DNA of 64,000 bases. Origin: Melastoma dodecandrum. Lineage: Eukaryota > Streptophyta > Magnoliopsida > Myrtales > Melastomataceae. Below, one piece after another: positions 649-62,174 of the stretch. The stretch lies in the NCBI GenBank assembly GCA_029817715.1, contig JARUPY010000296.1:38593-102592 (forward strand). Direction: 5' to 3'. Each line of letters starts with the position of its first letter. Position 1 is the stretch's first letter. The notes beneath the pieces are model-generated. The model was not told the origin of the DNA, searched no databases, and saw only the letters and a list, made by a program, of their open reading frames with translations. A program made the position numbers and the translations under genes.

Positions 649-677
649 GGGATTTGTCGCAGACCTGCGATCAAACC
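649..677 (-). promoter_or_regulatory. leader hairpin of 193-637
   Basis: Plus-strand reading TCGCA-GACC-TGCGA; ends 11 nt before the ATG. Confidence 0.8.
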
Positions 678-696
678 GATTTTGACCCCTGCTCAT

Positions 697-724
697 GAAA
701 AAGGGCGGCCCTTGGGGCCGCCCG
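697..724 (-). terminator. terminator after 757-1167
   Basis: GGGCGGCC/GGCCGCCC stem followed on the minus strand by a U5 tract. Confidence 0.8.
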
Positions 725-756
725 CCGATCTCGGCTTTGGCTTCGGGACGCCCCGG

Positions 757-1167
757 CTAGACGGTGTCGAAAGCGGCGCGGCGCGCCTGGTCGTGTTCGG
801 TCAGGAACAGAGCGATCGTGTCCGCCTCGGTCTCATCCTGACCGCGCCACACCACCTCGGGTTTTCCGGACTGATCCTGATCGGGCCACACGAGCACGGT
901 CCAGACATCGCCGGCGACGTCGAACTGTGCGATCGGCTTCGGACGGGCGATCGCCAGGGCCGCCTGCCGGGCGGGCCAGTGCGCGAGTAGGAATTTTGCG
1001 ATCGTCTCGGCGGTCGTCGGATCGTCGCCCCGCCACACGACCCGCTCCGATCCCGCCTCGGGAGTGTCGGGCCGGACCAGGACCTCCCAGAGCCCGGTGG
1101 AGCGGCGCTGGATCGCCTCCGCGGGCGCGGATGTGAGCGCGGGCGGGTTGAGTGCGGTGTCGGTCAT
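757..1167 (-). CDS. hypothetical protein with two internal repeats, 136 aa
   Basis: Intact. Two copies of a roughly 45-residue unit: residues about 25-70 (GLWEVLVRPD...VVWRGDDPTTAETIAKFLL) and about 88-132 (DVWTVLVWPD...VVWRGQDETEADTIALFLT). Each unit looks like a beta hairpin followed by a helix. The start overlaps the TGA of the upstream gene (ATGA), so it is the last gene of a three-gene unit starting at 2151. Function unknown. Confidence 0.8.
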   Translation of the reverse strand: MTDTALNPPALTSAPAEAIQRRSTGLWEVLVRPDTPEAGSERVVWRGDDPTTAETIAKFLLAHWPARQAALAIARPKPIAQFDVAGDVWTVLVWPDQDQSGKPEVVWRGQDETEADTIALFLTEHDQARRAAFDTV

Positions 1168-1461
1168 CGCCCCTGAACTCCGTCCGTGAGGATGCCGGCG
1201 ACCTGCCGGCCCCGCTCGGCTTGGCTCGCCCGCTCGGCCTGGCGCTTTCTCGTGCCAGAGCCGGGCCATCTCGGCGCGGATCCGGCGCATCTCCCGGGCG
1301 GCCAAACGCCGAGGGAGGGCGTCGGAGAGCCAGTCGTACTGACCGGGCCCGGTCTTCATCACCACGGCCCAGAGGAGCGCGGTCTTGCGCTCGCAGCGGC
1401 GGCCCTGCGCGTCGCAGGGCACGAGGTGGGGCTCGTAGTTCGGCGTGGTGTCGCGCGCCAT
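1164..1461 (-). CDS. hypothetical protein, about 98 aa, one frame break
   Basis: ATG 1461. The N-terminal half is MARDTTPNYEPHLVPC..., with three Cys, then a basic helical stretch (LPRRLAAREMRRIRAEMARL). One extra A in AAA at about 1249 breaks the frame; without it the protein ends QAERGRQVAGILTDGVQGR at a TGA overlapping the next ATG. Middle gene of a coupled trio. Not recognised. Confidence 0.6.
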
Positions 1462-1514
1462 GGCGGGCTCCGTGATCTGCGCTCGCGCGCGGGGTGATGG
1501 CAGGAGGGGTGGCC

Positions 1515-2151
1515 TCAGGCGGCCTTTTTCCGCCGCCCGGTGCGCCCGCTCGCGAGGTAGCGGGTCGGCCACCGCGATCGCGCAGGCGACGAACGCCTCG
1601 AGATCGGCGAGCACCTCAGGCATCGGTGCGTCCGCCTTGTCGCCGCCGAGCCAGAGCTCGACGAGGAGATCTGAGGTCGTGGCGCGCTCGAAGGTCAGCT
1701 CGACGCTGGTGGCCGAGACCGTGAGGTGGAACGCGTTGCTGCTGGAACTCGCGGTCCCGTGCCGGGCGTAGACCTTCTTGCCGGAGGCCAGGCAGAGGTA
1801 CGGCTTGAACCCGGCCGCCGAGATCTGGGTCTCGACGTCCGTGGTCACCGGATGGGCGGCGATCGCGCCGAGCACGGCCTCGCCGTCCTCGGTGGTGGGA
1901 AACCACCCGAGCCGGACCCCGGCGAACGGCAGGGTGTAGCCGAGCCGCGTGCGCTCGGGGCTGTTTGGGGCCGCATTCCAATAGGCGCTGTCGACGTCGC
2001 GCCCGGTCATCCCGTCGGGGTGCCGAAGGGCGTAGCGGAGTTCGCTCACCCCATCGCGGCGGGTCGGTGTGAGCATCAGCCGGCCGCCGGCGCAGTGGGC
2101 GATGGCGATGTCGCTTCCCAAGTCGATCCGGGAGAAACGCAGTTCGCTCAT
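1515..2151 (-). CDS. hypothetical protein, about 211 aa, 3' frame break
   Basis: ATG 2151 follows the variant leader hairpin at 2163-2190 and GGAGACGATC. Mixed alpha/beta sequence with a Ser-rich strand segment (ARHGTASSSSNAFHLTVSATSVELTFERA) and a helical C-terminus. One extra A in the A5 run near 1531 makes the frame read into the next gene; without it the protein ends AAEKAA. Heads the 2151-757 unit. Function unknown. Confidence 0.65.
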
Positions 2152-2390
2152 GATCGTCTCCTGGGGTTTGGCGCGGCTGCGCCCTCACCCGGGGGTGAGG
2201 ATTCGGTCTCGATCCGGATGCGTCGGCGGCCGCCGACCCGGGCGCGGCTGGGGTCGAGGGCGTTGAAGAATCCGTTGCGGTCCCGCACCTGGGCGGGCGT
2301 CGCCCGGCCGGCGGCGATCTCGGCGAGGTCGCGCTCGCGCGCCCGCTGCTTCTCCAGTCGGCGCGCCGCGCCGTTGAACGTGTCCGTCAC
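2148..2390 (-). CDS. small basic hypothetical protein
   Basis: GTG 2390 preceded by GGAGGG, overlapping the TGA of the upstream secreted protein (GTGA). Helical and basic: FNGAARRLEKQRARERDLAEIA. The open frame runs through the leader of the next gene to TGA 2148 (overlapping its ATG), so the true end may be earlier (an alternative frame stops at 2185). Confidence 0.5.
   Translation of the reverse strand: MTDTFNGAARRLEKQRARERDLAEIAAGRATPAQVRDRNGFFNALDPSRARVGGRRRIRIETESSPPGEGAAAPNPRRRS
2163..2190 (-). promoter_or_regulatory. variant leader hairpin of 1515-2151
   Basis: GGCGC-GGCT-GCGCC. The usual outer T:A pair is replaced by G:C, a compensatory change. A second stem CCTCACC/GGTGAGG follows. 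Confidence 0.7.
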
Positions 2391-2953
2391 GCTGCCCTCC
2401 GCGCCGGTGTGTGACCAGGTCGTCGCCTCTGTCGTACCCGTGGCGCACTCAGTCGTCCGCGGCGCGCGATGCGGGTGCTGGCGGGCAGCACCTCGAACCG
2501 CCGTCCGGTCCAGGCGAGCGTCTGCTCGCACGGCAGGTAGCCGGTCCGGTTGCACGCCGAGCCGTGGAGGCTGGCGTAGAGCCGGGGCGTGCCGGCGACC
2601 GTCCGGAACCGGATCTCGCGCACGGTCTCGTCGTAGACTGCCCGGAACTCCCCGCCCACAGAGGCGAACACCTGCAGCGTGCAGCCGCCGGTACCGCAGA
2701 AGAAGTTCGGGTCCTCGCCGCAGCTGAGGAAGCTGTAGTCGAGGATGACGTCGGCGATGCCATCGCCGTTCACGTCGGTGCGCCGGACGAACCCGGGCTG
2801 CGCCTCGATCTCCGCCGGGCAGGCGGCGCGCGCCTGGTCGAGCGCGGCCGCGGCCGCCGGCGGCAGCCGGTCGGGGAGCGGCTGGGCGTTCGTGGGGCCG
2901 GTAAGCGCGAGGAGCGCGCCGAGGGTGAGCAGGGCGACGGAGCGGGTGCGCAT
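2387..2953 (-). CDS. secreted protein with Asp-rich loop, 188 aa
   Basis: Sec signal peptide at residues 1-23 (MRTRSVALLTLGALLALTGP, cut near TNA-QP). The mature part has DVNGDGIADVILDY, an EF-hand/FG-GAP-like Ca-binding loop, then a Cys-rich region (SCGEDPNFFCGTGGCTLQ) fit for periplasmic disulfides. The extreme C-terminus is basic and may be a frame-break artefact (another frame stops at 2449). Variant leader at 2968. Confidence 0.7.
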   Translation of the reverse strand: MRTRSVALLTLGALLALTGPTNAQPLPDRLPPAAAAALDQARAACPAEIEAQPGFVRRTDVNGDGIADVILDYSFLSCGEDPNFFCGTGGCTLQVFASVGGEFRAVYDETVREIRFRTVAGTPRLYASLHGSACNRTGYLPCEQTLAWTGRRFEVLPASTRIARRGRLSAPRVRQRRRPGHTPARRAA

Positions 2954-2967
2954 GATGCGATCCTCTT

Positions 2968-2996
2968 GGGGTTTGGCGCGGCTGCGCCCTCAACCC
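2968..2996 (-). promoter_or_regulatory. variant leader hairpin of 2387-2953
   Basis: GGCGC-GGCT-GCGCC, same core as at 2163; the flanking second stem differs. Confidence 0.7.
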
Positions 2997-3045
2997 TCAT
3001 CGAGGGGTCGTCTCTGAGTGGTCTGCGCCGGCGTGCCGGTGTCCG

Positions 3046-3441
3046 TCAGCCCGTGAGATCGGCGCTCATTCCGGCGCGTCCTGAAACGCGGAAGCTGCCG
3101 TCGGAGGCCACGTGGTAGACCGGCAGGTTCCCGAGGAGGGTGCGGTCCCACTGGGCGTGGTGACCGTCGCGGTAGGGCGGCCCGCCGGGCTCGTGGCTGC
3201 CGCCGCAGACGGTCTTGCCCAGGGGAATGATCAGGACGTCGCCGTTCGGATCACCCTTGCGGCCCCGGCGAATGTCGCCCTCGCGCAGCGGCAGGACGAG
3301 TTCGTAGTGGCACGCCCAGTACCGGTAGCGCGGATGGACCTCCGTGATGACCGGAAGATGGGGGTGGTCGTCCTGCTCTTCCTGCGTGGCGGGGGCCCAG
3401 CGCAGTTGCAGGCGTGGGGCAGGGGGCTTGGCGTCGGACAT
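3046..3441 (-). CDS. hypothetical protein, 131 aa
   Basis: Intact, ATG 3441 after AGGAGG. Soluble, Pro/His/Tyr/Gly-rich (HPRYRYWACHYELVLPLREG, GGSHEPGGPPYRDGHH). No leader hairpin; it directly follows the small ORF 3462-3617. Unrecognised. Confidence 0.7.
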   Translation of the reverse strand: MSDAKPPAPRLQLRWAPATQEEQDDHPHLPVITEVHPRYRYWACHYELVLPLREGDIRRGRKGDPNGDVLIIPLGKTVCGGSHEPGGPPYRDGHHAQWDRTLLGNLPVYHVASDGSFRVSGRAGMSADLTG

Positions 3442-3461
3442 CCGGGATCCTCCTCGCGCGC

Positions 3462-3617
3462 TCAGCCCAGGGTCCGGCCCCCGCCCTTGGGGCCGGGGCT
3501 GCTCCGGTCGCTCGTCTGCCGGGGTGTCGATTCCCCGCTGAATCCCGTGCCTGGCGCGCGCTCGGAGGTGGGGTCCGGGACGGGCGACGGGGGCGGGGCG
3601 ATGATGGGTAGCTTCAT
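3462..3617 (-). CDS. small Pro/Ser-rich ORF, 51 aa
   Basis: MKLPIIAPPPSPVPDP... ends SSPGPKGGGRTLG. Low-complexity and probably disordered. A distant GAGGAT could serve as ribosome binding site. May be only a spacer ORF. Confidence 0.4.
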   Translation of the reverse strand: MKLPIIAPPPSPVPDPTSERAPGTGFSGESTPRQTSDRSSPGPKGGGRTLG

Positions 3618-3666
3618 CGGTGGAGATCCTCGGGTTTGTGGAGCCTGCCGCGGGCCGGGATCGGCC

Positions 3667-3870
3667 TCAGACGGCGCGATGGGCCTCGTGGCGGTGCCAG
3701 GCGGGCGAGCCGCTCGGGAGCACGTCGTAGGTCTGGGGCATGAAGCCGAGATAGGCCTCGAGCTCGTGCCGGAAGCACCAGGTCCGCTCCTGGTCGGACC
3801 AGACGATCAGGTCGTCGGGCTCCGCGCACAGCGGCTGGACGGCGAGGCGCGGATCGTTGGCGTGGGGCAT
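3667..3870 (-). CDS. hypothetical protein, 67 aa
   Basis: Intact, acidic, aromatic-rich (DDLIVWSDQERTWCFRHELEAYLG). ATG 3870 follows GGAGACGACG and a variant leader. Unrecognised. Confidence 0.75.
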   Translation of the reverse strand: MPHANDPRLAVQPLCAEPDDLIVWSDQERTWCFRHELEAYLGFMPQTYDVLPSGSPAWHRHEAHRAV

Positions 3871-3881
3871 CGTCGTCTCCT

Positions 3882-3904
3882 GGGATTTGGCGCGTATGCG
3901 CTTG
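3882..3904 (-). promoter_or_regulatory. variant leader hairpin of 3667-3870
   Basis: GCGC-GTAT-GCGC core with the outer T:A replaced by G.T. Confidence 0.55.
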
Positions 3905-3980
3905 CAGTCGATCCGGCGCGAGATCCGGTTGTGATCGGGGGTCGGGGCGACCACCGGGCCGCCCTGACCCATGCCTTGGC

Positions 3981-4550
3981 CTAGCCGAGCAGCACCGGCG
4001 TCACCGTGAGCGTTCCGGTCGCCGGATCGAAGGCGAATTCGGTCGCGTCCCACCAGCTGCGGCTGCGGTAATGCTCGAAGGCGAACAGCTTGGCGGGATC
4101 GGCCTCGCCGCCGGCGGCGATGAAGGCGGCCCGCAGGCTTTCCGGGCTCTGCGGGGTCGCCGCGATCAGGCCGAGCGGCTTTAAGGAGCGCCAGGATCGC
4201 GGCGACCTCCTGGTCGCTGCCGTCCATCTCGTGGACGATGTAGGCGGCTCCGTGCTGGCAGACCTCGGCGAGGGTGTCGAGCGTCCAGGCCGCGTCGACC
4301 GCGAGCTTGGGGAGCGCCGCGGCGTTGCCGATGGTCAGGCCGCCGTGCTCCTGGCGCGGCGCGATCTGCAGGTGCGTGATCTCGGCCGGCAGCGGCTCCT
4401 GGCCGGTGAACCGGTGTCCGTAGAACGCGCGCCCGTCGCCGCCCTCCCGGCGGACAGCGAGTTCCTTGGCCTCGCCCAGCGAGCCGTGGATGCCCCAGCC
4501 GATCTGGCAGGCCCATCAGGGCCTGGAGCGTCAGTGGGGTCGGGGGGCAT
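3981..4550 (-). CDS. hypothetical protein, paralogue of 47681-48164, broken
   Basis: About 189 aa when read across breaks near 4508-4540 and in AAA near 4183. Conserved with 47681-48164: FYGxxxTGxExLPAE, then DAAWTLDTLAEVCQHGAAYI against DATWTIDRLWEACRAAAAYA. C-terminus FDPATGTLTVTPVLLG. The N-terminus overlaps the 3' end of 4531-4898, so they form one unit. Function unknown. Confidence 0.6.
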
Positions 4551-4898
4551 CTCCGGGCGCGCCGGCCGCGGCGGGCGGGCCATGGCGAGGCCAGCCTCGT
4601 AGGCGAGGTCCTGGATCGACAGCATCCCCGGGTCGTCCCGGTTGTACCGGGCCCGGGCGGCGATCCGCGCACCGGTCCGGAACAGGTGCTCGACGGCGGC
4701 CGATCGCCGGGCCGCAGGCGAACACGATCGCCTGGCCGATCTCGGCGACGAGCACCGGACGATCGTTCGAATTCCGAGCGGTAGGCGTTCGCCAGCACGC
4801 CTTCGACCATCCGGTCGACCGGGCGCGGATCGGCGAGCATCTCACCGGATGTCATGGGCGATGTTGCCATCCAGGCTGCGGATCTCGAGAGCCGTCAT
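4531..4898 (-). CDS. hypothetical protein, paralogue of 24935-25315, broken
   Basis: ATG 4898 behind the 4911 leader. Segments in three frames align in order with the intact 24935-25315 protein: LADPRPVDRMVEGVLANAYR, then RPVLVAEIGQAIVFACGPAI, then MLSIQDLAYEAGLAMARP. At least three single-base breaks. Soluble alpha/beta protein of unknown role. Confidence 0.6.
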
Positions 4899-4910
4899 TG
4901 CTGTCCTCAT

Positions 4911-4939
4911 GGGGTTGTCGCGCATGCCGCGATCAACCC
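4911..4939 (-). promoter_or_regulatory. leader hairpin of 4531-4898
   Basis: TCGCG-CATGC-CGCGA, with a 5-nt loop. Confidence 0.7.
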
Positions 4940-4956
4940 TTTGGGTGGGGGCTCAT

Positions 4957-4985
4957 GAAAAAGGGCGGCCCGCTGGGCCGCCCGG
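4957..4985 (-). terminator. terminator after 5000-5404
   Basis: GGGCGGCCC-GCT-GGGCCGCCC stem with U5 on the minus strand. Confidence 0.8.
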
Positions 4986-4999
4986 TGATCTGGCCACGC

Positions 5000-5404
5000 T
5001 CACTCTCCAGGCGTCTGAGCGGTGTGGTGGAGCGATCTTCGATCAGTGCCTCGAGCACCGGCGGTATTCGACGGCTTGTGCCCCCGTCGTAGGCGAGGGT
5101 GAATGCGCCGTCCCACCGTCCGGACAGCCACGGTCGAGGTCGAGCCCTCGCCGAGATACTGGCACTGCCCGGTCATCATCGCGTTTGGGGTGCGACGGGC
5201 GCAGGGTGTCGAAGCGGCAGGCGACCTCGTCGCCGACGAGCGTGCGGCCGGTGATCCGGATCGCGCCGTCGGTCACGGTGCAGTCGGAGCCGACCGGGGT
5301 CCAGGTGCCGGCGAGCGAGATCGCCGGGGCCGGCATCGCGACCGCGCGCAGCATAGGCTCGCGCCGGCGAAGAGGGCGATGCCGAAGAGGGAGCCGGTGC
5401 GCAT
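5000..5404 (-). CDS. secreted hypothetical protein, broken
   Basis: Signal peptide MRTGSLFGIALFAGASLCCA. Later frames carry SLAGTWTPVGSDCTVTDG, MTGQCQYLGEGSTSTVA and WDGAFTLAYDGG, consistent with a small beta-rich periplasmic domain with one disulfide. At least three indels (near 5350, 5190 and 5125), so the exact end is uncertain. Confidence 0.55.
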
Positions 5405-5449
5405 GGTCGTGGACCTTCTGAAGGACCGCGTCTGCGGTCGATTATTTCC

Positions 5450-5477
5450 GGGGTTTGTCGCCGATCGGCGATCAACC
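5450..5477 (-). promoter_or_regulatory. leader hairpin of 5000-5404
   Basis: TCGCC-GATC-GGCGA; unusually far (45 nt) from the ATG. Confidence 0.7.
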
Positions 5478-5598
5478 CGTCTGCCCCAGGCCCCATGTCC
5501 GGCGGACGCCGTGCGGCGGCCGCGCGTGTGCCGAATCCCTGGACACGGACGTGTTATTGCGGCCAAGCTGTTCTTCGGCAACGCGGAGGTTTTCGGTC

Positions 5599-6266
5599 GT
5601 GCAGGGATGGTTTCGGGATGAGCGCGGCGCCGACCGCGATCGAGTACGCGCTGATCGGGGGTCTGATCGGCCTCGGGTTGATCGGGTCGTTGGTGGCCAC
5701 GAAAGGGTCGCTCAATGCGATCTTCGGCGTGGCCTCAAGCCAGATGGGCTCGTCCTCGGAGGTGGTTCGAGCACGGCCCTCCCGACCACGAGCAACCCGC
5801 AATCGGCGGTGTGGGCACGCAAGACGCTGGCGGCCCGCGCCGACGCAGACGGTCTCCGGCAACGTGGGTGCAAACGAACTGGGTGTTCACCGACGGCACG
5901 ACGGTGAGCCTGCGCACGGGGTCCGGCGGCGTCTGGGACAGTGCGCTGCTGGTCACGGATCCCGCGCAACCACGTCACGCGCGATTTCGAGACGGACCAG
6001 AACGGCAATCAGACGCTCTATGCGACAAGCTACTATGACTCGGCGATGAAGTACTACACCGAGACGCTGTTCGTCGAATACGTCTGCCAGCCCACTGACG
6101 GGCTCGCCGCCCACCATGACGACGATGGTCGATAAGGTCTATTCCGGGGCGAACAACCTCGTGGCGACGTACAACGTCGCGCCGTCGGCGGCGTTCGCGT
6201 CCGATGGTCAGGACGCGTATTACAACTTCAAGTATTTCACCGCGACTCGCGAGCGCGATGCGCTGA
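5599..6266 (+). CDS. Flp-type prepilin-like protein 1, broken
   Basis: GTG 5599 gives a short leader ending FRDERG, the prepilin peptidase site, then ATAIEYALIGGLIGLGLIGS, the Flp/TadA-class helix. An extra C near 5631 breaks the frame at the cleavage site. A long C-terminal domain follows in several frames (TNWVFTDGTTVSLRTG, QTLYATSYYDSAMKYYTETL, NNLVATYNVAPSAAFASDGQ). Typical Flp pilins are only 50-70 aa. At least four indels. Confidence 0.65.
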
Positions 6267-6270
6267 GTCG

Positions 6271-6295
6271 ATGGGGCTGCTGGGTGCAGCCCCAT
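6271..6295 (+). terminator. hairpin after prepilin-like gene 1
   Basis: GGGGCTGC-TGGGT-GCAGCCCC stem between convergent genes; no clear T-tract. Confidence 0.5.
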
Positions 6296-6316
6296 ACGGC
6301 TTCGGGTTCGGCCGAA

Positions 6317-6575
6317 TCAGTCTGTCGCCTCGTCGCGCAGCGCCAGGCAGGTGAGCAGCATCACCCCGTAGGCGTTGATGTGCGCCCGGATTGGCCGTAA
6401 TCCGGGTGAGGGAGTTCGGCCTTGAATCGCCTCGATCTCGGCGCGCGACGGTTGCGGGCTCGCGTCGGGGCGCATCCGTCCGACCATCGCTCGGGTGACC
6501 GAGACGTAGCCGTCCTGGGTGAGGGTCTCGCGTCCGTGAAGGAATCTGTAGACCACGTAGAAAGCTCAGGTTCAC
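6317..6575 (-). CDS. hypothetical protein, about 86 aa, one frame break
   Basis: GTG 6575 after GGGAGGAAG. Removing one T near 6562 joins MNLSF to YVVYRFLHGRETLTQDGYVS. The C-terminal half is helical (HINAYGVMLLTCLALRDEATD). Second gene of a unit with 6603-6895. Confidence 0.6.
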
Positions 6576-6602
6576 GGTTCTTCCTCCCTGTGTGGCTGGG
6601 GC

Positions 6603-6895
6603 TCAGGCCGCGGCGGCCTGCCCATCCCGGACCGGCGCGAACCCGTCGTAGAACAGGGTGTTGGCGATGGCCTCGGGCGGTCGCGAGGGCGAGATTGAGC
6701 CGCTGCGCCTGGAAGGCGTGCTGGATGCGCTCGGGGAGCGTCATCTCCGGCAGGCCCACGAGCGCGCCGGCGATCTCGGCAAACAGCGCGTCGTCGGCGA
6801 GTTCGTAGAGCTGCTCGTCGGCGGGGGTGCCGAGCACGAGGCAGGCGAGGACGCACTCCTTGTCGCGCAGGCTTGAGCGTGGCGGGCTTCGGCAT
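6603..6895 (-). CDS. hypothetical protein, about 97 aa, two frame breaks
   Basis: ATG 6895 behind the leader at 6912. The middle frame is clear: DEQLYELADDALFAEIAGAL, then PERIQHAFQAQRLNLALATA. With one G removed the C-terminus is NTLFYDGFAPVRDGQAAAA. All-helical, acidic. Unrecognised. Confidence 0.6.
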
Positions 6896-6911
6896 GGGTC
6901 TCGTCCTTCCT

Positions 6912-6941
6912 GGGGTTTTGTCGCCAACGGGCGATCAACCC
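6912..6941 (-). promoter_or_regulatory. leader hairpin of 6603-6895
   Basis: TCGCC-AACG-GGCGA; TTTT instead of TTT before the stem. Confidence 0.8.
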
Positions 6942-6962
6942 GGGTGATCTCTCGAGAGCGTC

Positions 6963-6980
6963 GGCCGCTCTGGGGCGGCC
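6963..6980 (-). terminator. hairpin after 6983-7200
   Basis: GGCCGC-TCTGGG-GCGGCC stem; no U-tract, so termination is uncertain. Confidence 0.4.
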
Positions 6981-6982
6981 GA

Positions 6983-7200
6983 TTACCGGCGCGAAGGCAT
7001 CTTCCAGATCCGCGCGCGCCGCTGCCGGACGCGGCGCAAGGCTGGCACGGCCTGAGCCCCAGCGATGGCGACGTCGAGAGCAGCACGCCCGCGTCGCCAG
7101 CTCGGTGGTGTCGACGTGCTCGCGGGTGCGCTCGGCCGCGTACAGGCTGTGAAAGGCGGCTCCGGCGCTGGGCGATGGCAGGATGAGTTTCGCGAGCCAT
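6983..7200 (-). CDS. small hypothetical protein, broken
   Basis: ATG 7200 (MARETHPAIAQRR) after GAGGA. The coherent middle frame AAFHSLYAAERTREHVDTTELATRA is joined through breaks to a basic tail QRRARIWKMPSRR ending at 6983. At least two indels. Lies downstream of 7245-7398 without its own leader. Confidence 0.45.
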
Positions 7201-7244
7201 GGACGGCGTCCTCGTGTGCAGCGGGATGGGGGGAGCGCGTCGGA

Positions 7245-7398: not shown

Positions 7399-7410
7399 CG
7401 TCGTTCTCCT

Positions 7411-55054: not shown

Positions 55055-55739
55055 TGTTCGGATCGTGTCCCTCTCGAATGGGCTTCGGCCCAGTCCTGGA
55101 ATTCGGATCTCGGCTCGGGCCGGGGCTCCGGCTCCGGCGGGGCTACGACCGTCGCGGTCGCCACGTCGATGATCAGCCCGTGGAGCGGGCAGGTCACGCG
55201 GCCGCCGGCATCGGGTCGCAAGCGTCCCCGAGTGCGAAGGCCCTTGTGCGGGCAGATGAGCTGACCGCCGGCGTCGCGGCCCGCAAGCGCGCCGGCCGGC
55301 GTAGGTGCGGTGGAGGTACCCGTGCGGCCGTGTTTCGCAGCGCGTACCCGAGCGGGTACCGGTGATCGGTCGAGATACACACCGCGCGGCCGCCACACCG
55401 GATCGGGGAGCGGCGGCGTCTCGCGGGTCATGGTGAACCGGCGCGCTCTCGCGGCCGCCAAGGTCACGGCGTCGAGGCCGTGGCGCTCGGCGGCCGTCGC
55501 CGTACTCGGCGATTCATCTTTTCGCCCCTGTCGCACCGAGTGAGGAAGCGCAGGTCGACGAGTGATAGTGCGGCCACGGGAAGTGCAGGTCGACATCCTC
55601 GTGCTTGGGCCCCATGACGGGCCAAGCTGAGGTGACCTCCCGCCAGGGATGGGTGACAGTCGGCACGAGGTAGCGCTCGCCGACGATCGGCCGGCGCGGT
55701 GAGGGCGTCGATGCGTGGGATCCGCGTCTGCGTAGGCAT
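55049..55739 (-). CDS. Rieske-type [2Fe-2S] protein, about 230 aa, several frame breaks
   Basis: The cluster-binding loops are clear: ICPHKGLRTRG (CxH) and, 17 residues on, VTCPLHGLIIDVATA (CxxH), as in Rieske ferredoxins and oxygenase Rieske domains. N-terminal segments (YLVPTVTHPWREVTSAWPVM, GPKHEDVDLHFPWPHYH, LPDPVWRPRG) are spread over three frames. No catalytic mononuclear-iron domain is seen, so it is an electron carrier or sensor rather than an oxygenase. ATG 55739 after AAGGA. Confidence 0.65.
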
Positions 55740-55820
55740 GCTCAGTGTCCTTGATGCCTCTGAGTGGCGGGATGCTCGCAGCGGATCGGCGGTCAATGCG
55801 CAGTCGCTCCGGCCCGGCTA

Positions 55821-56878
55821 TTACGCCTCCTCGTTGATCACGATCTCGCCTCCGGTCTCCTCGACGATGACGAGATCTCACGGGTGGCGAGCATCGCGAT
55901 GCGCGGCGGCACGGTGATCGGTTCCGCGATTTCGAGCCGGCCGTGATGGGCGAGACGATCTCCAACACCTCGCCCTCCGGGGTGGGGTGGTGGTGCAGCC
56001 AGATCTCGTCCGGACGGGCGTCTTCCGGCAGTCCGTGGAGCCGTGTCAGGTCCGCCAGATCGCGGCAGATCTCACAGGCGGCCATGCGCCGGACGGCGGT
56101 GATCGGGTCGCCTCGGCGCGTCGAAGGCGAGGTCCGGCCCAGCGCGCCTGCAGGCGGGCGATCACAACCCCGGGTCTTCACCGCGTCGTGGAACGGATCG
56201 TCGAATCCGTCGAACATGCTCTCTTGACGCTGGAACGCGCAGGCCGACGAGGGCCGCGTACCGCGACCCCGTCGGCCGGGCCGAAGTCCGGGGTCTCGAG
56301 GAGCGCGGCGGCCTCGCGCAGGTTTCGGCCATCGACGGCAGCGTGATCGGCCCTGCCATGCCCCTGCGCCTTCAGGAACAAGGGCGTGGAGCGTCACCGG
56401 CAGGGCGACCGGCATCTGCGCGAGCCGGGCTGGCGTCGCGCAGGCCGGAAGGAAGGTGGCCTGATCCTCCGGTGCGCAGGACCGGGCAGTTCCAGAGCAG
56501 GTCGTTGAGCGCCTCAAGGTCTTCGCTGATGAGGCGCGCGATCGTGGCCGATGGGCCGATCACCGGCATGACGAACGTGGTCGTCTCGTACCGGTCCGCC
56601 CCGCCGGGTTCGCGCGCCGGCAGGCGCGTGTTCCGGCTGCACAGGTGCCGGTAGACCTCGCCGAGGAACTGGCCGATGGCGTCGTCCAGGACGTCCCAGA
56701 GCTCCGGGATCGCTGCCTCTAGGCCGGCTTCGAACGCCGGGGCGGTCCACGGGCAGCCGCGGGACGGCCCAGAAAGGATCCGTCTTCCACAGGCGGGCGC
56801 AGGTGACGATCGCGTCGCGCACCTCGGCCAGGGTTAGGCTGGTCCGCTCGGCGACATCGCCGTCGAGAAACAGGTCAT
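55821..56878 (-). CDS. large hypothetical protein, paralogue of 42122-43209, many frame breaks
   Basis: Fragments: VRDAIVTCARLWKTDPFWAV, AIPELWDVLDDAIGQFLGEV, RYETTTFVMPVIGPSATIAR, CPVLRTEDQATFLPACATPA, FLKAQGHGRADHAAVDG, FQRQESMFDGFDDPFHDAVK, ACEICRDLADLTRLHG and ETGGEIVINEEA. The first three align with the paralogue, and the total span gives a similar length (about 350 aa). At least six indels. Confidence 0.5.
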
Positions 56879-56941
56879 GGCGGTCCTGCAGTCCGGTGCG
56901 GAAGGATGGGGCGAGCCGGGGTCTCGAGACAGCCCTGGATT

Positions 56942-57330
56942 TCAGGGCGTCGCCGTGCTGAGCGCGCCCTGGGCGGCGGTCTCCGCGGCGGCGACGCGCG
57001 CGTAGGTCGGCTCGCCGGTGAGAACACGGCGTAGCTCGCCTCGGGGACGAGCTTCAGGTCCTTCGGCTGCTCGCGGCAGCGCGCCTCTGCGCGCAGGTCG
57101 AGCGGCATCAGGTACACCCGGTCGCGCAGGCCCTGGTTGAGGCCGGTGCTGCTGAGGTGCAGGATCTCGGTGTCGACGGACACGCGCACGGCGACGTGTC
57201 TCCACTCGCCCGAGCACCCAGACGTGATCGCGGGACCAGATCCGCGCCAAGCTGAGCAGGGCGATGATGTTTGGGCGGCGCGCACGCCGTTGCGCGTCCG
57301 GACGCCGGCGAGGGTGACGGTCTGGCTCAT
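56942..57330 (-). CDS. hypothetical protein, about 128 aa, frame breaks
   Basis: MSQTVTLAGVRTRNGVRA, then SLARIWSRDHVWVLGRVET, VSVDTEILHLSSTGLNQGLR, MPLDLRAEARCREQPKDLKL and PTYARVAAAETAAQGALSTA. Beta-rich then helical. ATG 57330 after GGAGGAG; no hairpin. Unknown. Confidence 0.55.
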
Positions 57331-57382
57331 GGTGGTCTCCTCCGGGTCGCCCCGGAGGGCGAGCGTGCGACGGCGCGGCGCG

Positions 57383-57682
57383 CTAGTCGGACGCTGCTTC
57401 GTCGGCCGGCGTGCTCGCGGCTTTCAGGCTGGCCTCGAAGGCCTTCATGCCTCCGCCGCCGGGGCCGAAATGCGCCTTCAGCGCGTCCGGGCTGAGGAGC
57501 GCCCTGGCTCTCTCGATGCCCTCGGGCGTGTCAATGCGGATCGTGGCGATGGGGCCGGCCGCGAATGCGGCGCCGTCACAGGCCTTCTTGGCCTCGCCCC
57601 TCGCACTGGAGGCAGCCCTGGCCTTTGGCACCCACCGGCAGTCGACGTAGCGATGCCCGTCGAAGCGCATGGGTCTCTTCAT
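57383..57682 (-). CDS. hypothetical protein, 99 aa
   Basis: Intact. MKRPMRFDGHRYVDCRWVPK, SARGEAKKACDGAAFAAGPI, IDTPEGIERARALLSPDALK. Basic N-terminus and helical C-terminus. Follows 57721-58093 closely. Unknown. Confidence 0.65.
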   Translation of the reverse strand: MKRPMRFDGHRYVDCRWVPKARAASSARGEAKKACDGAAFAAGPIATIRIDTPEGIERARALLSPDALKAHFGPGGGGMKAFEASLKAASTPADEAASD

Positions 57683-57720
57683 CGGATCTCTCAGTGATCG
57701 GTGGTCTGGACGTCGCCGTA

Positions 57721-58093
57721 TCAGGCGGCGATCGCATCGAGGTGGCTGAGATCCTCGGCCAGGGCGCGGCCCATCTGGATCTCCAGGCCGAGCGTCTCGG
57801 CGACGGCCATGACGGCATCCGAGGATCAGCGTCTCGTTCGGGTTCCAGAACTCGAACATCTGCCAGGTCGAGACGTCGTCACGGCCGCAGTGCCCGCCCT
57901 GGTGAAACCACTTGGTCGCCTTGGGCATGTCGTAGCAGGCCTCACGGAAGCGCACGGCGAGGGCGCGGCCCGCCGGCGTCGCGGCGACGTTGAGCGCGAA
58001 CAGCCAGTTCCGGCACTTCAGCGGATCGTCGTTGTACAGGTACAGCACGTAGGGCACGGCCTGACCGTCGACGGTGAGCGTGGTCTTCTCCAC
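57721..58093 (-). CDS. hypothetical protein, about 124 aa, one frame break
   Basis: GTG 58093 after GGAGGC. TTLTVDGQAVPYVLYLYNDD, CRNWLFALNVAATPAGRALA, WFHQGGHCGRDDVSTWQMFE. A break near 57822 to MAVAETLGLEIQMGRALAED, ending LDAIAA. Several Cys/His residues; unknown. Confidence 0.6.
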
Positions 58094-58149
58094 GGGAGCC
58101 TCCAGAACTCGGGTGCGACAGCGCGCGGGGTTTCGGGTCCGGCGGGTCC

Positions 58150-58501
58150 TCAGGCCGCCTGCTGCCGGGGGCGGCGCACGAGCGCCGCGCATTCCAGGTC
58201 CTCGATCCGGGTGAGGCCGGCGACGCGAATCATTGCCGCCCGCGCTTCGTCTTCTCGGCGCTGGGCTCCGCCCGTGCTCGGGTCACGATCGACCCAGACG
58301 TTCGTGGCGACGCTCGGGCGCGACGGGCTCGCCGTAGCGGACGCCCACATGGTCGGCGTACCGGACGCGCGAGCGGCCGGGGGTGACCGTGTAGGTTCGG
58401 GCACAGCTCGCGCGGGCGCGGGCCGGGCGGTGAACACGCTGCTCGCGGCGCACCGGCGCGCGGCCCCTCGGTCGGGTGCCGAACGCGGAGGTCGCGCACA
58501 T
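58150..58501 (-). CDS. hypothetical protein, about 117 aa, one frame break
   Basis: MCATSAFGTRPRGRAPVRRE, then RTYTVTPGRSRVRYADHVGV, RYGEPVAP, a break near 58320, VATNVWVDRDPSTGGAQRRE, EARAAMIRVAGLTRIEDLEC. Basic. Overlaps the 3' end of the next gene upstream. Unknown. Confidence 0.5.
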
Positions 58502-58801
58502 CGAGAGCCTGAGCACTCGAACCCGTCGATGGCGACGAGCATATGCTTGGTGCGATCGACCACCTGGACCATGAGGCCGGTGAGGCGCTCGAAATCGTAG
58601 TAGCCGTGGGAATTCTTCGGGTGCACGGGCCGGGTGATCATCACCTCGACCTGCTCGCCGGGCTGCGGGCAATCGCCGTGCCGCCTCTCGAAGAAGCACA
58701 GCTGGTCGCCGATGAAAGGCGACGACCTCGCCCGGCTTGCGCCGGCTCGGCTGCACGGTGGCGATCAGCGGCTGGTGGGCGATGCCGTAGGTCTGAGCCA
58801 T
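58502..58801 (-). CDS. hypothetical protein, about 100 aa, one frame break
   Basis: MAQTYGIAHQPLIATVQPSR, RKPGEVV, a break near 58717 and then GDQLCFFERRHGDCPQPGEQ, VMITRPVHPKNSHGYYDFER, TGLMVQVVDRTKHMLVAIDG. Small beta-barrel-like strand pattern (PGEVV...GEQVEVMITRP...VQVVD). ATG 58801 behind the 58813 leader. Confidence 0.6.
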
Positions 58802-58812
58802 CGTCGTCTCCT

Positions 58813-58841
58813 GGGGTTATGTCGCCGGCTGGCGATCAACC
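58813..58841 (-). promoter_or_regulatory. leader hairpin of 58502-58801
   Basis: TCGCC-GGCT-GGCGA, with TTAT for TTTG upstream. Confidence 0.75.
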
Positions 58842-58913
58842 AGAGATCCTGTGTTCTCCGATTGCGCGACGATGTTGCGAACGTCGGCCCCGGGGTTTTT
58901 AACCGCCTGGATC

Positions 58914-58942
58914 GAGAAAAGGGCGGCCTGTATGGGCCGCCC
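58914..58942 (-). terminator. terminator after 58954-59210
   Basis: GGGCGGCC-TGTAT-GGGCCGCCC, U4. Confidence 0.8.
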
Positions 58943-58953
58943 GCGCAGCGATG

Positions 58954-59210
58954 TCAGGCGACGGTGTATACCGACTCGAACATGTACTCCTTGAGCATCT
59001 CCTCGAAGCTCGCGGTGCTGACGATGTTCTCCTATCGCGTTTGATCTCGCGTGAGCATCTCGCGGAATCTCGCGCATCTCGGCGAGCACGGCCTCCCGGC
59101 CGGTGCGGTGCTTCATGTTGTCCAGGGTGGTTCTCGAGCTGATTCAGCTCCTACCACAGGGCCCGCCAGAGCAGGTCGCCGCGGGTCTTGGTGAGATCGA
59201 GGGCGCTCAT
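58954..59210 (-). CDS. helical hypothetical protein, about 85 aa, frame breaks
   Basis: MSALDLTKTRGDLLWRALW, then ELNQLENH, MKHRTGREAVLAEMREI and ASFEEMLKEYMFESVYTVA. At least four indels and an in-frame TAG near 59155. ATG after AGGAGAGG. Confidence 0.5.
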
Positions 59211-59219
59211 GGTGGCCTC

Positions 59220-59304
59220 TCCTGAGGGCGTATTCGGACGAAGGCGGGTCGGACGTCTTAGCGATCGCCATCGGGTATGCGGTGATCTGCCGGATCGCCG
59301 TCAT
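59220..59304 (-). CDS. possible short ORF
   Basis: MTAIRQITAYPMAIAKTSDP then PSSEYALRR, start 9 nt after GGAG; runs into the next gene unless a frame break ends it. May not be a gene. Confidence 0.25.
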
Positions 59305-59436
59305 TCATCTGGCTCCGGCGACGGTCGCGCCGCCAAGCCTGAAAATGGTAGTTTCGCCGCGCTCAGACTAAGAATCGAACCATCGGGTGAGGTCGGTCTG
59401 TGTCATGCCGGCGTCGAGCGCTTCGAGTGATCAGCG

Positions 59437-59630
59437 TCATCCCGGCATCCCGTCAGGCGACCGGTCGATCGCCAGATCGGAGGGGATGCCGGATCTTGCA
59501 GCCGCTCGATCAGCGCTTTCCATATGATCGGCACGAGCTATGGCCAATCGGGCTTCGTCTCGCGCTTTTGCGAGATGGCTTTCGAGTGGATTTAGTGTTC
59601 CGATATAGACAGCAATGGGCTCTCCTCGAT
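59437..59630 (-). CDS. possible helical ORF without clear start
   Basis: IGTLNPLESHLAKARDEARL, AIARADHMESADRAAARSGI, ending SPDGMPG. Reads like a real helical protein, but no ATG or GTG follows the upstream stop; an indel near 59625 may hide the start. Bordered by the AT-rich patch 59640-59745. Confidence 0.35.
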
Positions 59631-59790
59631 GCTGCGTCTATGACACAAACAATTTAGAAAAAGGATACGTATTCGAAAATTATAATTACGGAATCACATC
59701 GAAATCGAGAATTTCGAAGTCGGATATCGAAAACCCGGCTTCGATGCCGACCAATGCCGTTCGAGATCGATCGCCCCCGGACTGCCCTGC

Positions 59791-59995
59791 TCAGTCGCGC
59801 GGCGGGAACACCGCCATCAGCGCGTCGTGCTGGCCTGGATGCGCCGGTCCATCTCGGCGACGAGGGGCGTCCGTGTTTCCGGTGGCCCCACCACGGCTCG
59901 TCGCCGTGGCCGACGGCCCCGGCGAGCGCGTCGAGCGCCTCCCAGGCGGCGGCCTCGGCCGGGTCCATCTACGGCCTCGGGCGGATCGCGGTCAT
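59791..59995 (-). CDS. small hypothetical protein, frame breaks
   Basis: MTAIRP, then DPAEAAAWEALDALAGAVGH, GDEPWWGHRK, LVAEMDRRIQAQHDALMAVF and PPRD. Three indels. Helical. Unknown. Confidence 0.5.
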
Positions 59996-60012
59996 GTCCG
60001 GCCATGCGCGCT

Positions 60013-60735
60013 TCACGCCTCCGCCGGTTCGGGGGCGGCGTTGAGCTTCGCACAGCAGCGTTGATCAGCAGCTTCATGAATGAACTTCACGTTCTCGAAC
60101 GGGGCGCTGAAGCGGCCGAAGTTGCGGCTGCCCGTACTTGGCGAGCGGCAGGATCTCGCGCACGGGCCTCGTCGATGTATTCGATCTGCTTGGCGTCGGG
60201 TGAACCACGCCGTGCATCGTCCAGAGGTTGTGCATCCGGTCCGCACAGCTTCACGAGCAGCGCCATCCAGGAGGTCTTGATCTCGGCGAAGTAGAAGGCC
60301 TCGTCCTTCTTGATGCCGTTCCCGGACCTTGGACAGGAGCTCGACGTTGTCTTGCGACGACCCGCGCCGAAACTGGGCGCGCAGGATGGCGTCGGTCATC
60401 GGCCAATCTGGCCCGGCCGGGAACCTTCGCCGGATCGGAATAATCCTCGACGATGTCGTGCAGGATGGTCGATGCAGATCAGGTCCTCGAGGAATCTCCT
60501 CGGGGATCGCGAGCGTGAGGACGTAGAGGGCGATCGTGACCTGGTGATCGAACTCCGGCGTCACGCCGTCCTTGCGCGTGGCCGACGTGGTAGCGCTCGG
60601 CGAGCGCCATGGCGTCGAGCGCGCGCCAGTACTTGTCGGGCGCGCAATTCCGTGCGCAGCACGAGGCGCGGCGCTTTCTTCGCGCTGGAGACGTCCGGTC
60701 CATCACCCAGCAATGGTGTTCTCGAGTTGGGTCAT
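60013..60735 (-). CDS. HD-domain hydrolase, SpoT/MESH1-like, many frame breaks
   Basis: Reading across indels: YWRALDAMALAERYHVG, HQVTIALYVLTLAIPEEI, ILHDIVEDYSDPAKVP (HD motif), MTDAILRAQFRRGSSQDNVE, LLVKLCDRMHNLWTMHG (second D, DRxHN), EYIDE and FENVKFIHEAADQRCCAKL. Order and spacing match the (p)ppGpp-hydrolase HD domain (LLHDxxED...KLADRxHN). No synthetase domain, so a small alarmone hydrolase is the best guess. Leader at 60751 is degenerate. Confidence 0.65.
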
Positions 60736-60750
60736 GGCCGGGGTCCTTTC

Positions 60751-60778
60751 GGGGGTTTTGTGTCGGCGGGCGATCACT
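60751..60778 (-). promoter_or_regulatory. degenerate leader of 60013-60735
   Basis: GGGGGTTTTGTGTCGGCGGGCGATCA keeps flanks; stem largely lost. Confidence 0.45.
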
Positions 60779-60885
60779 CGCTGTGATGGAACGGGCCGTC
60801 ACGGTTTTTCCGGCGGGCGGAGCCGGTTACGGCTCCGACCCATCGCCGGCAAGGGGTCATATGACGCGGCGCTTGCGTCCGCGGC

Positions 60886-61038
60886 TTACCGGCGTGCGCC
60901 GGGTCGCCAGCGCGGTGCGGCGAGGCGCGCGTAGACGCTCGTCAGATCTTCCTCGCCCGCGGCTGCGGCGAGCTTGAGGCCGGCGGGGGGCCGCCGCAAT
61001 CGATGCCGGTCGGGGTGGTCGCGCATCGCGGTCGTCAT
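60886..61038 (-). CDS. small basic hypothetical protein, 50 aa
   Basis: Intact. MTTAMRDHPDRHRLRRPPAG, LKLAAAAGEEDLTSVYARLA, APRWRPGARR. ATG after GGAGAC. No hairpin leader; no visible terminator. Unknown. Confidence 0.6.
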   Translation of the reverse strand: MTTAMRDHPDRHRLRRPPAGLKLAAAAGEEDLTSVYARLAAPRWRPGARR

Positions 61039-61054
61039 GGCGGGTCTCCGCAGG

Positions 61055-61353
61055 TCATGCGATTCTCGGGAATTTGGCCGTGATCCGGTCCATGCTTCGG
61101 CCTGGCCTGATCCGCGCCGCGTTTGGCGCGCACTCGGCGGTCGGGCTCAGGCGGGAGTAGCCGCGGGAGACTGCGGCTCGCCGAATTGGCGATGCACAGC
61201 CGGGAAGGCTCCAGCGCATCACCTCGTCTCTCGGAGGCGAGTGGCCGGTGCTTTTTTTTTCGGCACGGGTTCGAGGGTCGGCTGAGCAATGCCCATCCGG
61301 TCGTCGCTGGTGACACCCGTGGCGTTGTCCCAGCGCAGATTGCGCTGGACCAT
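61055..61353 (-). CDS. hypothetical protein, about 98 aa, break at a poly-A run
   Basis: MVQRNLRWDNATGVTSDDRM, GIAQPTLEPVPKKK, an A9 run near 61251 where the frame is lost, then MRWSLPGCASPIRRAAVSRG and GRSMDRITAKFPRIA. The homopolymer length is uncertain, so the C-terminal frame is too. Confidence 0.45.
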
Positions 61354-61539
61354 CACGCGCGCGGGCTGCAGCCCATCTCGGTGGCGTCACTGTGAGAGTG
61401 TCGTGCGCAGGCGTCGGGATATGCGACAACTCGGCGATGCGGATGATCCTGGCGCATGGTGGTGGATCCTGAGAGGGCGGCGCCGAGGCTCTCGGCAACC
61501 GGTCGCCCAGGTTTCGAGCTGGGGATGGCCAGCCACGAC

Positions 61540-61578
61540 GAAAGGGCTGGCCCGTTATGAGGGAGCCGCCCTTCGGGC
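61540..61578 (-). terminator. degenerate terminator after 61582-61945
   Basis: GGGCTGGCCCGTTATGAGGGAGCCGCCC resembles the common stem with several mismatches. Confidence 0.4.
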
Positions 61579-61581
61579 CGG

Positions 61582-61945
61582 TCAGGGATGCGTGGGCTCA
61601 GCCCTCTCTGTAGCGGGACGTCCTGCATCGGGGATTCCTCCGGGCTGTCGGTCACGCGTCGGGTCGATCTCGCTGAACCGGTATGTTTCGGCCGTCGAGG
61701 CGGATCGGCGTGGTAATCATCGCCTGGAGCTGGTCGCCGCTCAGAGGCTTCCCGAGACTGGGTAGCTGGCGAAGCCTTTCCCGATCACGAGATGATCGCC
61801 GAGGCTGATACCGAGCGCCGCTTGGCGATGTAGCGCCGGCGCGGCCCTCGTCCGAGCGTGCCGCGGCACGGGCTTGGCGATCCCGCCGAACTGCGCGAGG
61901 TGCTGCTGCTCAAGCCAGGCGACGGGTGGCGGCGTCGAGGTTCAT
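61582..61945 (-). CDS. hypothetical protein, about 120 aa, frame breaks
   Basis: MNLDAATRRLA, LEQQHLAQFGGIAKPVPRHA, then SLGDHLVIGKGFASYPVSG, GKPLSGDQLQAMITTPIRLD, FSEIDPTRDRQPGGIPDAGR. The start overlaps the upstream stop (ATGA). Unknown. Confidence 0.5.
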
Positions 61946-62132
61946 GCCCACATGCTTCCAGGGCGGCCTTCTTGGCGCGGGGCGCGGGCGGCGAAGACTG
62001 CCCCGACGGGCGGCGGATGCGGGCCTGGTGACGGCTGCTCGGCGGCGGCCTCGGCCGCGATCGCACGCGTCGCGGGCCGAGCGATCCGGGCGCGGAATGA
62101 GTCATGATTTCTGGCGAGCCGAAGCGAGCCAT
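61942..62132 (-). CDS. small basic KHQAR-module protein, frame breaks
   Basis: MARFGS start, then FRARIARPATRAIAAEAAAE, RHQARIRRP, VGAVFAARAPR. The AEAAAE-xxHQARI-xFAAR order matches 45050-45206 and 21725-21877. Behind the last leader hairpin of the array. Confidence 0.5.
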
Positions 62133-62145
62133 GGTGTCGTCCTTC

Positions 62146-62174
62146 GGGGTATTGTCGCCAGCTGGCGATCAACA
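62146..62174 (-). promoter_or_regulatory. leader hairpin of 61942-62132, last of the array
   Basis: TCGCC-AGCT-GGCGA with ATTG in place of TTTG. Confidence 0.7.

Follow-up and report, generated by a model that had tools for sequence, protein, structure and literature searches.

What is the short hairpin that recurs ahead of gene after gene on one contig of the Melastoma dodecandrum assembly, and at which step of gene expression does it act? The contig (JARUPY010000296.1, assembly GCA_029817715.1) is 102,592 bp long in an assembly of 373 Mb and 607 contigs. The 64,000-nucleotide stretch analysed here, which we refer to as the window, is its right end (contig positions 38593-102592). We suggest, with a little better than even confidence, that the hairpin acts in cis, as a leader where translation begins, on the genes of a plasmid-wide regulon.

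To count the copies we used a covariance model of the element (R1) made from an alignment of 56 copies (A1). The two weakest of 58 position weight matrix (PWM) candidates (29265 and 3907) were left out of this alignment. At E<0.01, R1 matched 58 leader copies on the minus strand of the window (647..62178), including two (4909-4942 and 51704-51736) that were absent from its training set. At this threshold the plus strand gave one match (18969-19002, E 0.0071), a mirror image of a copy on the minus strand. This agrees with the first-pass annotation, made from the sequence alone, which had described about 60 copies on one strand. A strict pattern gave 34 matches in the searched assembly, all on this contig and on one strand, with 0 for the reversed-pattern control, and no element copy was found in the left 38.6 kb of the contig at up to 3 mismatches. 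The copies matched by R1 at E<0.01 are as follows.

647-680, 2161-2194, 2966-2999, 4909-4942, 5448-5481, 6911-6944, 7409-7442, 7754-7787, 8618-8651, 9653-9686; minus strand; leader copies, array part 1 (33-34 nt each)
10559-10592, 11021-11054, 11236-11269, 11997-12030, 12402-12435, 13435-13468, 15017-15050, 16557-16590, 17711-17744, 18968-19001; minus strand; leader copies, array part 2
19809-19842, 21514-21547, 21892-21925, 22440-22473, 23380-23413, 24255-24288, 25329-25362, 27212-27245, 31022-31055, 31440-31473; minus strand; leader copies, array part 3
32040-32073, 32881-32914, 33862-33895, 34157-34190, 34580-34613, 36229-36262, 37127-37160, 38057-38090, 39156-39189, 40057-40090; minus strand; leader copies, array part 4
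41230-41263, 41733-41766, 42070-42103, 43601-43634, 44081-44114, 45220-45253, 46804-46837, 47610-47643, 48855-48888, 49361-49394; minus strand; leader copies, array part 5
50638-50671, 51500-51533, 51704-51736, 54245-54278, 55025-55058, 58812-58845, 60750-60783, 62145-62178; minus strand; leader copies, array part 6

In the sense of the transcript, the consensus of the 56 aligned copies reads 5'-GGG-UUG-A-UCGCN-NRYY-N'GCGA-CAA-A-CCCC-NG-SD-AUG, where SD is the Shine-Dalgarno sequence. The stem is 8-11 bp long and closes a 4-nt loop. The unpaired, bulged A on the 5' side and the A that follows CAA are each kept in 55/56 copies. The loop has the form N-R-Y-Y, with a pyrimidine at columns 18 and 19 in 52/56 and 50/56 copies, so the earlier description of a free loop sequence does not hold. 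The bulged A, the UUG/CAA helix below it, the GGG/CCC extension, the CCCC tail and an upstream palindrome likewise go beyond that description. A typical copy and its surroundings are made up as follows.

22446..22467; minus strand; 22-nt core, UUG A UCGC G ACUU C GCGA CAA A, with the 5'-side bulged A and the 4-nt loop (PWM and alignment)
22423..22445; minus strand; UCCC tail, SD (GAAGGAC) and ATG after the hairpin
22474..22489; minus strand; upstream palindrome, GATCTC-CACA-GAGATC
22550..22581, approximate; minus strand; intrinsic-terminator-like repeat (GC stem, then TTTTCTC) ahead of the copy

Evidence that the hairpin is maintained as a folded structure comes from the fifth pair of the stem (columns 15:20). 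It is C:G in 27, G:C in 20, A:U in 6 and U:A in 1 of the 56 copies, the four types that the first-pass annotation had listed. The pair is complementary in 54/56 copies where 22.1 would be expected from the columns alone. Two rarer changes that had been reported were also recovered, A:U once at pair 14:21 (the copy at 36231) and G:C twice at the outer pair 11:24 (2163 and 2968). We compared the whole helix with 500 shuffles and with six slid versions of itself. Paired cells made up 88.1% of 616 compared to 82.3% in the shuffles, and the covariation score of 0.150 (0.044 in the shuffles) was reached in 0/500 shuffles, counts that are not to be taken as probabilities since copies within one plasmid may be kin by duplication. 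This score also lay above all six slid controls (maximum 0.087). Two other measures were weaker: 26/500 shuffles reached the number of further pair types, which slides of -3 and -1 exceeded, and these two slides also equalled the count of pairs changed on both sides (6). Pairing extends outwards into GGG/CCC, where the flanks of a copy pair with each other better than permuted flanks do (6 nt, z -3.97, 2/5000; 40 nt, z -2.55, 30/5000).

The same columns bear on whether the element might be a double-stranded DNA operator for a dimeric repressor, as in the clade II establishment regulon of the pLS20 family. A near-palindromic 22-bp site in many copies would suit such a protein, and establishment regulons based on repressors are known, as described in PMC8708921. 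However, a DNA-binding dimer would not need the two bases of the fifth pair to stay complementary through all four types (54/56). The bulged A on the 5' side and the pyrimidine end of the loop are asymmetric and stand in one orientation in 58 copies, and the placement of the element is tied to the SD. We regard an operator of this kind as highly improbable.

Duplication has spread some of the copies: 24/58 of the open reading frames (ORFs) behind the leaders have a relative among the other leader ORFs. The hairpin could be a repeat carried along when gene cassettes duplicate, its conservation due to recent copying and not to function, and terminator-like repeats have been copied as well. In contrast, 34/58 leader ORFs lack any such relative. 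Complementarity at the fifth pair is retained in 30 of the 32 aligned copies ahead of these ORFs, with 13.3 expected (C:G 16, G:C 11, A:U 3). Flanks and loop vary while pairing holds, and related genes keep leaders in plasmids where the leader sequence is different, as described below. Hitchhiking as the whole explanation is quite improbable.

Part of the copies carry a second, often GATC-based palindrome upstream. A perfect inverted repeat of at least 6 bp within 40 nt upstream was found for 15/58 copies, compared to a mean of 4.0 and a maximum of 10/58 in 200 rounds of shuffling. The pattern CGCC-Y-T-run, which resembles an intrinsic terminator, occurs 32 times on the minus strand of the window and twice on the plus strand. 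The terminator-like sequence GGGCGGGCCCTCACGGGCaCCGCCCTTTTCTC is itself copied many times ahead of leaders and is often followed by GRCAAA.

We next consider where the leaders stand relative to genes. An ATG follows the 22-nt core at 8-25 nt in 56/58 PWM candidates, and in the remaining two (33889 and 5475) it lies 42 and 49 nt away. The first-pass annotation had placed the hairpin directly before the SD of most minus-strand genes. The link to a start codon stands, but 'most' was not borne out, as only 34/68 of the better-scored minus-strand gene calls have a leader start at most 60 nt upstream; these calls are our own and crude because the contig has frame breaks. Nine of 57 leaders start 8-53 nt past the predicted stop of the gene before, which leaves little space for a promoter of their own. 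In 6 further leaders the predicted upstream frame, possibly miscalled, enters the leader. The UUGA of the hairpin holds a UGA stop, and in 5 cases (50665, 40084, 32908, 13462 and 8645) the predicted upstream frame ends exactly there, so that termination next to reinitiation is possible.

Hairpins in this position could also act on the messenger itself, as a processing or stability element (a 5' hairpin or an endonuclease site) that sets the half-life of the mRNA and not the access of ribosomes. Consistent with this, terminator-like sequences stand ahead of part of the leaders, and in one group of Microvirga leaders the hairpin lies near a predicted 5' end with a promoter-like box. The constant link to the SD and the pairing of start signals in related plasmids argue against it, and we take a role in mRNA stability to be very improbable.

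To see in what kind of replicon the array lies, we examined the rest of the contig. Its left 38.6 kb encode a type IV secretion system (T4SS) coupling protein, a VirB9-like CagX protein, a MobA/MobL relaxase and a DnaB-like helicase. In translated comparisons, with names taken from annotations, the gene order of coupling protein, VirB11-, VirB10-, VirB9-, VirB8- and VirB4-like proteins, DnaB-like helicase and relaxase is that of Microvirga pMVF16-3. Most of this order was also found in Sphingosinicella sp. BN140058 p1 and in an Erythrobacter aureus plasmid. A coupling-protein scan of genome contigs added Microvirga Mcv34, M. sesbaniae, M. calopogonii, Microvirga BT688, M. tunisiensis, Camelimonas and a Croceicoccus metagenome-assembled genome, 8 loci in all. 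Judged by this gene content, the context of the array is a conjugative plasmid.

A phage origin had been considered at first for the small one-strand genes and was rejected. Window 36000-58000 gave no megablast match in the phage collection, and the exact pattern was absent from the viral contig collection. Among 44 candidate stretches in viral contigs there was no coupling-protein relative, and 9/10 left-part proteins had no PHROGs match, the tenth being DnaB-like. The T4SS, the relaxase and the plasmid synteny of the left part led us to replace the phage reading by a plasmid. An integron cassette array was a further candidate, in view of the orphan genes on one strand and their inverted repeats.

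In four plasmids, small and mostly hypothetical genes lie beside the relaxase, on its far side from the T4SS, and are mostly co-oriented with it. In the contig studied here, about 11 kb with some plus-strand frames separate relaxase and array. Since the genes point towards the relaxase and the array lies on its far side from the T4SS, the array fits the leading (establishment) region of the plasmid, an assignment to which we give about an even chance. In PMC11541004, the genes of a leading region are described as sharing one strand and acting early. In Erythrobacter and Microvirga, the genes annotated as ssb are located elsewhere than in the arrays.

To determine whether related plasmids carry leaders of their own, we searched their arrays for start-associated patterns. 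In five Microvirga genomes, AAA?(T/C)CCC leaders stand ahead of open frames 129 times on the array strand compared to 7 on the other strand (29/1, 30/2, 29/2, 17/2 and 24/0 per genome). In Microvirga VF16, 28 leaders lie in the array part and 1, doubtful, in the backbone part. A stricter pattern gave 29 matches in the five genomes, 28 of them on the array strand and all on one contig per genome, which is the coupling-protein contig in VF16, calopogonii and BT688 and a different contig in the sesbaniae and Mcv34 drafts. Elsewhere this pattern gave two scattered matches in M. tunisiensis and none in Camelimonas or Croceicoccus, with 0 for the control. Sphingosinicella has 31 leaders on the array strand compared to 2 on the other; at its plasmid locus (L014), each of the 31 falls within the array, and the backbone part is free of them. 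For Erythrobacter the counts are 17 compared to 0 at locus L017, with 1/17 in the backbone part, and 2 compared to 2 outside the array at locus L013. The leader sequences of these relatives differ from the window element.

In the Sphingosinicella and Erythrobacter leaders, an inner hairpin is enclosed by pairing between an upstream stretch and the GGGGAATGAAA/GGGATGAAA start signal. In a close class (29/48 leaders), pairing within the leader exceeded that of permuted leaders (z 4.56, 0/20000), as it did in each genus taken alone (z 2.31 in Erythrobacter and 2.73 in Sphingosinicella); a shifted control reached z 1.44 in Erythrobacter. A hairpin class (15 of 19 after removing duplicates) gave z 4.78 and 0/20000, both classes having been picked after the leaders were inspected. 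The SD was also more closed than with shuffled upstream sequence in all three genera: Microvirga (107 leaders, 0.414 compared to 0.531 unpaired, p 8e-9), Erythrobacter (12 leaders, p 0.034) and Sphingosinicella (17 leaders, p 0.035). By eye, footprinting of Microvirga orthologues placed conservation near the start, including the hairpin, AAAUCCCC and the SD, and a conserved TATAAT-like box upstream of the hairpin was seen in 1/9 groups shown. The fixed place at the SD in the window and the pairing of start signals in the relatives together indicate translation initiation as the step at which the leaders act.

The genes behind the leaders point in the same direction. Leader status agrees in 5/5 array gene groups that are common to the window and Sphingosinicella or Erythrobacter, a comparison that was read by eye, is small and covers genes with detectable relatives. 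Four groups have leaders on both sides (metallophosphoesterase, ArfA-like, the 31587-32021 family and 58150-58801), and in the fifth (37619-37843) a leader is absent from both.

30254..31006; minus strand; metallophosphoesterase gene with leader; relatives L014:29449-30243 and L016:25811-26632 carry leaders of their own plasmid's type
37887..38045; minus strand; ArfA-like gene with leader (Pfam ArfA E 1.3e-4, below cut-off)
31587..32021; minus strand; orphan gene with leader; five relatives in L018 (8147-8470, 11839-12162, 12462-12785, 14026-14346, 42572-42895)
58150..58801; minus strand; orphan gene with leader, in two frames in the contig; relative L014:30376-30939 carries a leader
37619..37843; minus strand; gene without leader; relative L017:47490-47714 likewise without one by eye or pattern

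In the five L018 relatives of the 31587..32021 gene, the leaders are GGGGATGAAA or GGACGAAA hairpins. Leaders also stand ahead of the genes annotated as arfA at the Sphingosinicella and Erythrobacter loci (L014 and L017), whose likeness to the window gene comes from tblastn for L014 and from annotation only for L017. Of 20 array proteins compared with Pfam, 18 had no match at 0.01, one was a metallophosphoesterase and one had a weak DUF2505 match; 9 of 10 further frames gave no match.

The site of action might instead be the T-strand, the transferred single strand of DNA, as it enters the recipient, with the element as a promoter, priming site or protein-loading site like Frpo or ssi. The conjugative plasmid context would suit this, and array genes mostly face the relaxase side in four plasmids, an orientation expected if the T-strand is the template and the origin of transfer (oriT) lies near the relaxase. 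The mismatches are of interest here too, since an A.C mismatch of the mRNA corresponds to a T.G wobble on the opposite strand (26 compared to 3 for G.U). By eye, UUGAUC of the element's consensus matches a -35 box in 4/6 letters, but no -10-like box follows at the usual distance, where ACAAACCCC stands instead. The stems are short, unlike those described for Frpo in PMC11541004. The tight coupling to SD and start codon, and the pairing of start signals in the relatives, also speak for the transcript. Action in the T-strand appears unlikely to us. Between RNA and single-stranded DNA, the position of the leader and the pairing of the SD in relatives speak for RNA. The wobble counts do not, as the opposite strand would account for them at least equally well, and we regard RNA as the likelier of the two, short of proof.

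Our preferred reading is thus that of a leader acting at the start of translation. The near-invariant bulged A, the constrained loop end and a closing base pair that is free in sequence yet paired give the hairpin the look of one recognised by a protein. Within the mRNA it would govern how ribosomes gain access, either as a binding site or as a switch. One factor, most simply an RNA-binding protein encoded by the plasmid, may read the bulged A and the loop pyrimidines, much as phage coat proteins recognise their operators, and could control dozens of genes together, whether these stand alone or within operons. With less certainty, the array would be the leading region, and the leader would serve coordinated, perhaps transient, expression after transfer.

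Several results weigh against this reading, in addition to the spread of some copies by duplication. Over all pairs, A.C mismatches number 26 and G.U mismatches 3 (4 and 1 in the core), which counts against an RNA helix since such a helix would not favour A.C over G.U. The excess comes mostly from the outer C columns, conserved maybe for other reasons. In the window copies, the SD is not predicted to be closed beyond the level seen when the sequence upstream is shuffled (52 leaders with a recognised SD, 0.476 compared to 0.488 unpaired, p 0.41). A long-range anti-SD helix was unsupported there (56 leaders, z 1.46, 1522/20000); single copies such as 22467, 21919 and 10586 do fold in this way. 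Together, these two results suggest that the element is more likely a binding site beside the SD than a lock by itself. Among the relatives, the shifted control in Sphingosinicella also reached z 2.68 (156/20000), and consensus-fold support in Microvirga was modest (mean z -1.13 compared to -0.24 further upstream, 19 groups). Neither a trans factor nor an oriT was found. A trans-acting complement of CAAACCCC was sought: GGGGTTTG occurs 44 times on the plus strand and once on the minus strand, the latter inside the window, with nothing indicating a small RNA. A divergent gene between relaxase and array in the Erythrobacter and Sphingosinicella plasmids (L017:9103-9963 and L014:24643-25533, both plus strand, 39% identity) gave no Pfam match at 0.1; it is a possible regulator, and we do not claim it as the trans factor. 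Of the first-pass proposal of a selected, non-coding folded structure for shared regulation, covariation, unrelated genes and relatives with leaders support the core, while the element is wider than described.

To examine if the element is known elsewhere, we searched several collections. Rfam 15 gave 0 matches at gathering score over the window, in line with the earlier remark that no named element fits; matches in window 7000-23000 at E<=1 were weak and all below gathering score, and loci L014, L016 and L017 gave one tRNA only. The exact patterns had 0 matches in the viral contig collection and 0 in the genome contig collection, two collections that may lack records closely similar to the window. 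Window 2000-26000 had no megablast match in the plasmid collection. The covariance model proposed in the first-pass annotation as a check recovers 58 copies in the window and nothing significant in 28 loci of relatives (681,645 bases, best E 0.037). By eye, weak R1 matches within the arrays of Microvirga fall more often on the array strand than on the other, which we count as suggestive only because the model includes the CCCC tail. The literature searched, with subscription journals mostly outside the search, held no description of these leaders or arrays.

Four known systems resemble the element in part. The SAS of cluster K phages, GGGATAGGAGCCC, measures 13 bp and adjoins the start codon, and the ESAS is a 17-bp imperfect inverted repeat with a variable spacer. 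They were later read as containing a promoter in Adephagia, and their function is still unverified. Like the window element, they occur in many copies, nearly all pointing the same way, where translation of small non-structural genes begins, and about half of them have the inverted repeat just upstream. In contrast, the 56-copy consensus differs from the 13-bp SAS, the compact covarying hairpin with its 8-11 bp stem, bulged A and 4-nt loop differs from the ESAS, and the carrier is a conjugative plasmid and not a phage. Short hairpins with a bulged A near the ribosome-binding site are also the operators of MS2/PP7-type coat proteins; MS2 has a 4-nt ANYA loop and a single operator that includes the start codon. 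The 5'-side bulged A is shared (here 55/56), whereas the loop is NRYY, the hairpin lies upstream of the SD, the bulge spacing differs and there are 58 copies instead of one. EGeRS1 of pLS20-family plasmids is likewise a repeated structured sequence ahead of ribosome-binding sites with a proposed establishment regulon; according to PMC8708921 it is a Bacillus element of several variable operons, of unknown mechanism, with five copies on pLS20 and 400-600 bp with several inverted repeats. Here conservation covers ~34-60 nt in 58 copies, and the establishment role is inferred. The element therefore fails defining features of both SAS/ESAS and EGeRS1. Frpo and ssi, as presented in PMC11541004, are folded elements in the leading region of conjugative plasmids, with genes in one orientation, and the window element would share this place if its array is the leading region. 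They appear to differ in being promoters with -35 and -10 boxes in the folded strand, compared to a short hairpin at the SD that by eye has no such pair in its consensus.

Known control of establishment regulons uses single-stranded DNA promoters, repressors or structured sequences of unknown action (PMC11541004 and PMC8708921). If our reading is right, a covarying hairpin at the ribosome-binding site in 58 places, with analogues in other alphaproteobacterial genera, would add a further kind of control, at translation. If the regulon is real, the leader would also help to find orphan genes of establishment or anti-defence, as any gene that follows one would be a member of the set. A possible but doubtful extension is that a plasmid-encoded RNA-binding protein or small RNA keeps the leading-region genes translationally silent in the donor, and that a recipient without the factor expresses the block until the factor accumulates. 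Leader and factor would then co-evolve, each lineage having its own leader code. If true, this would be zygotic induction at the level of translation.

Several further observations were made on the contig and its relatives. The relaxase lies in two overlapping frames (L010:6235-9592, contig 24827-28184); the break is probably a sequencing error, one of several breaks suggesting indels in the contig. The array also contains an IS605-type OrfB/TnpB gene (PF01385, PF07282; window 27827-29185, plus strand), which lies in a stretch of 4 kb where G+C is low (0.616 at contig 68000-72000). Five near-full-length matches to the bacterial SSU rRNA family were found in the assembly (G000 contigs C547, C128, C2 and C360), one or more of which could be organellar. 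The assembly seems to hold bacterial sequence besides the main genome, and the plasmid host may be among these. In pMVF16-3, a small gene between array and relaxase (L015:15342-15809, minus strand) has a weak SSB/OB-fold match (E 0.0037, below cut-off), and a long open frame in the window (54931-56517, minus strand) has a weak Rieske domain match just below cut-off. The window also encodes paralogous small basic proteins with an (A)IRRSI-like start (7531-7740, 10348-10545, 12169-12387, 21725-21877 and 45138-45206) and a second paralogous family (VFSGLL...) at 11308, 17952, 19173 and 53508.

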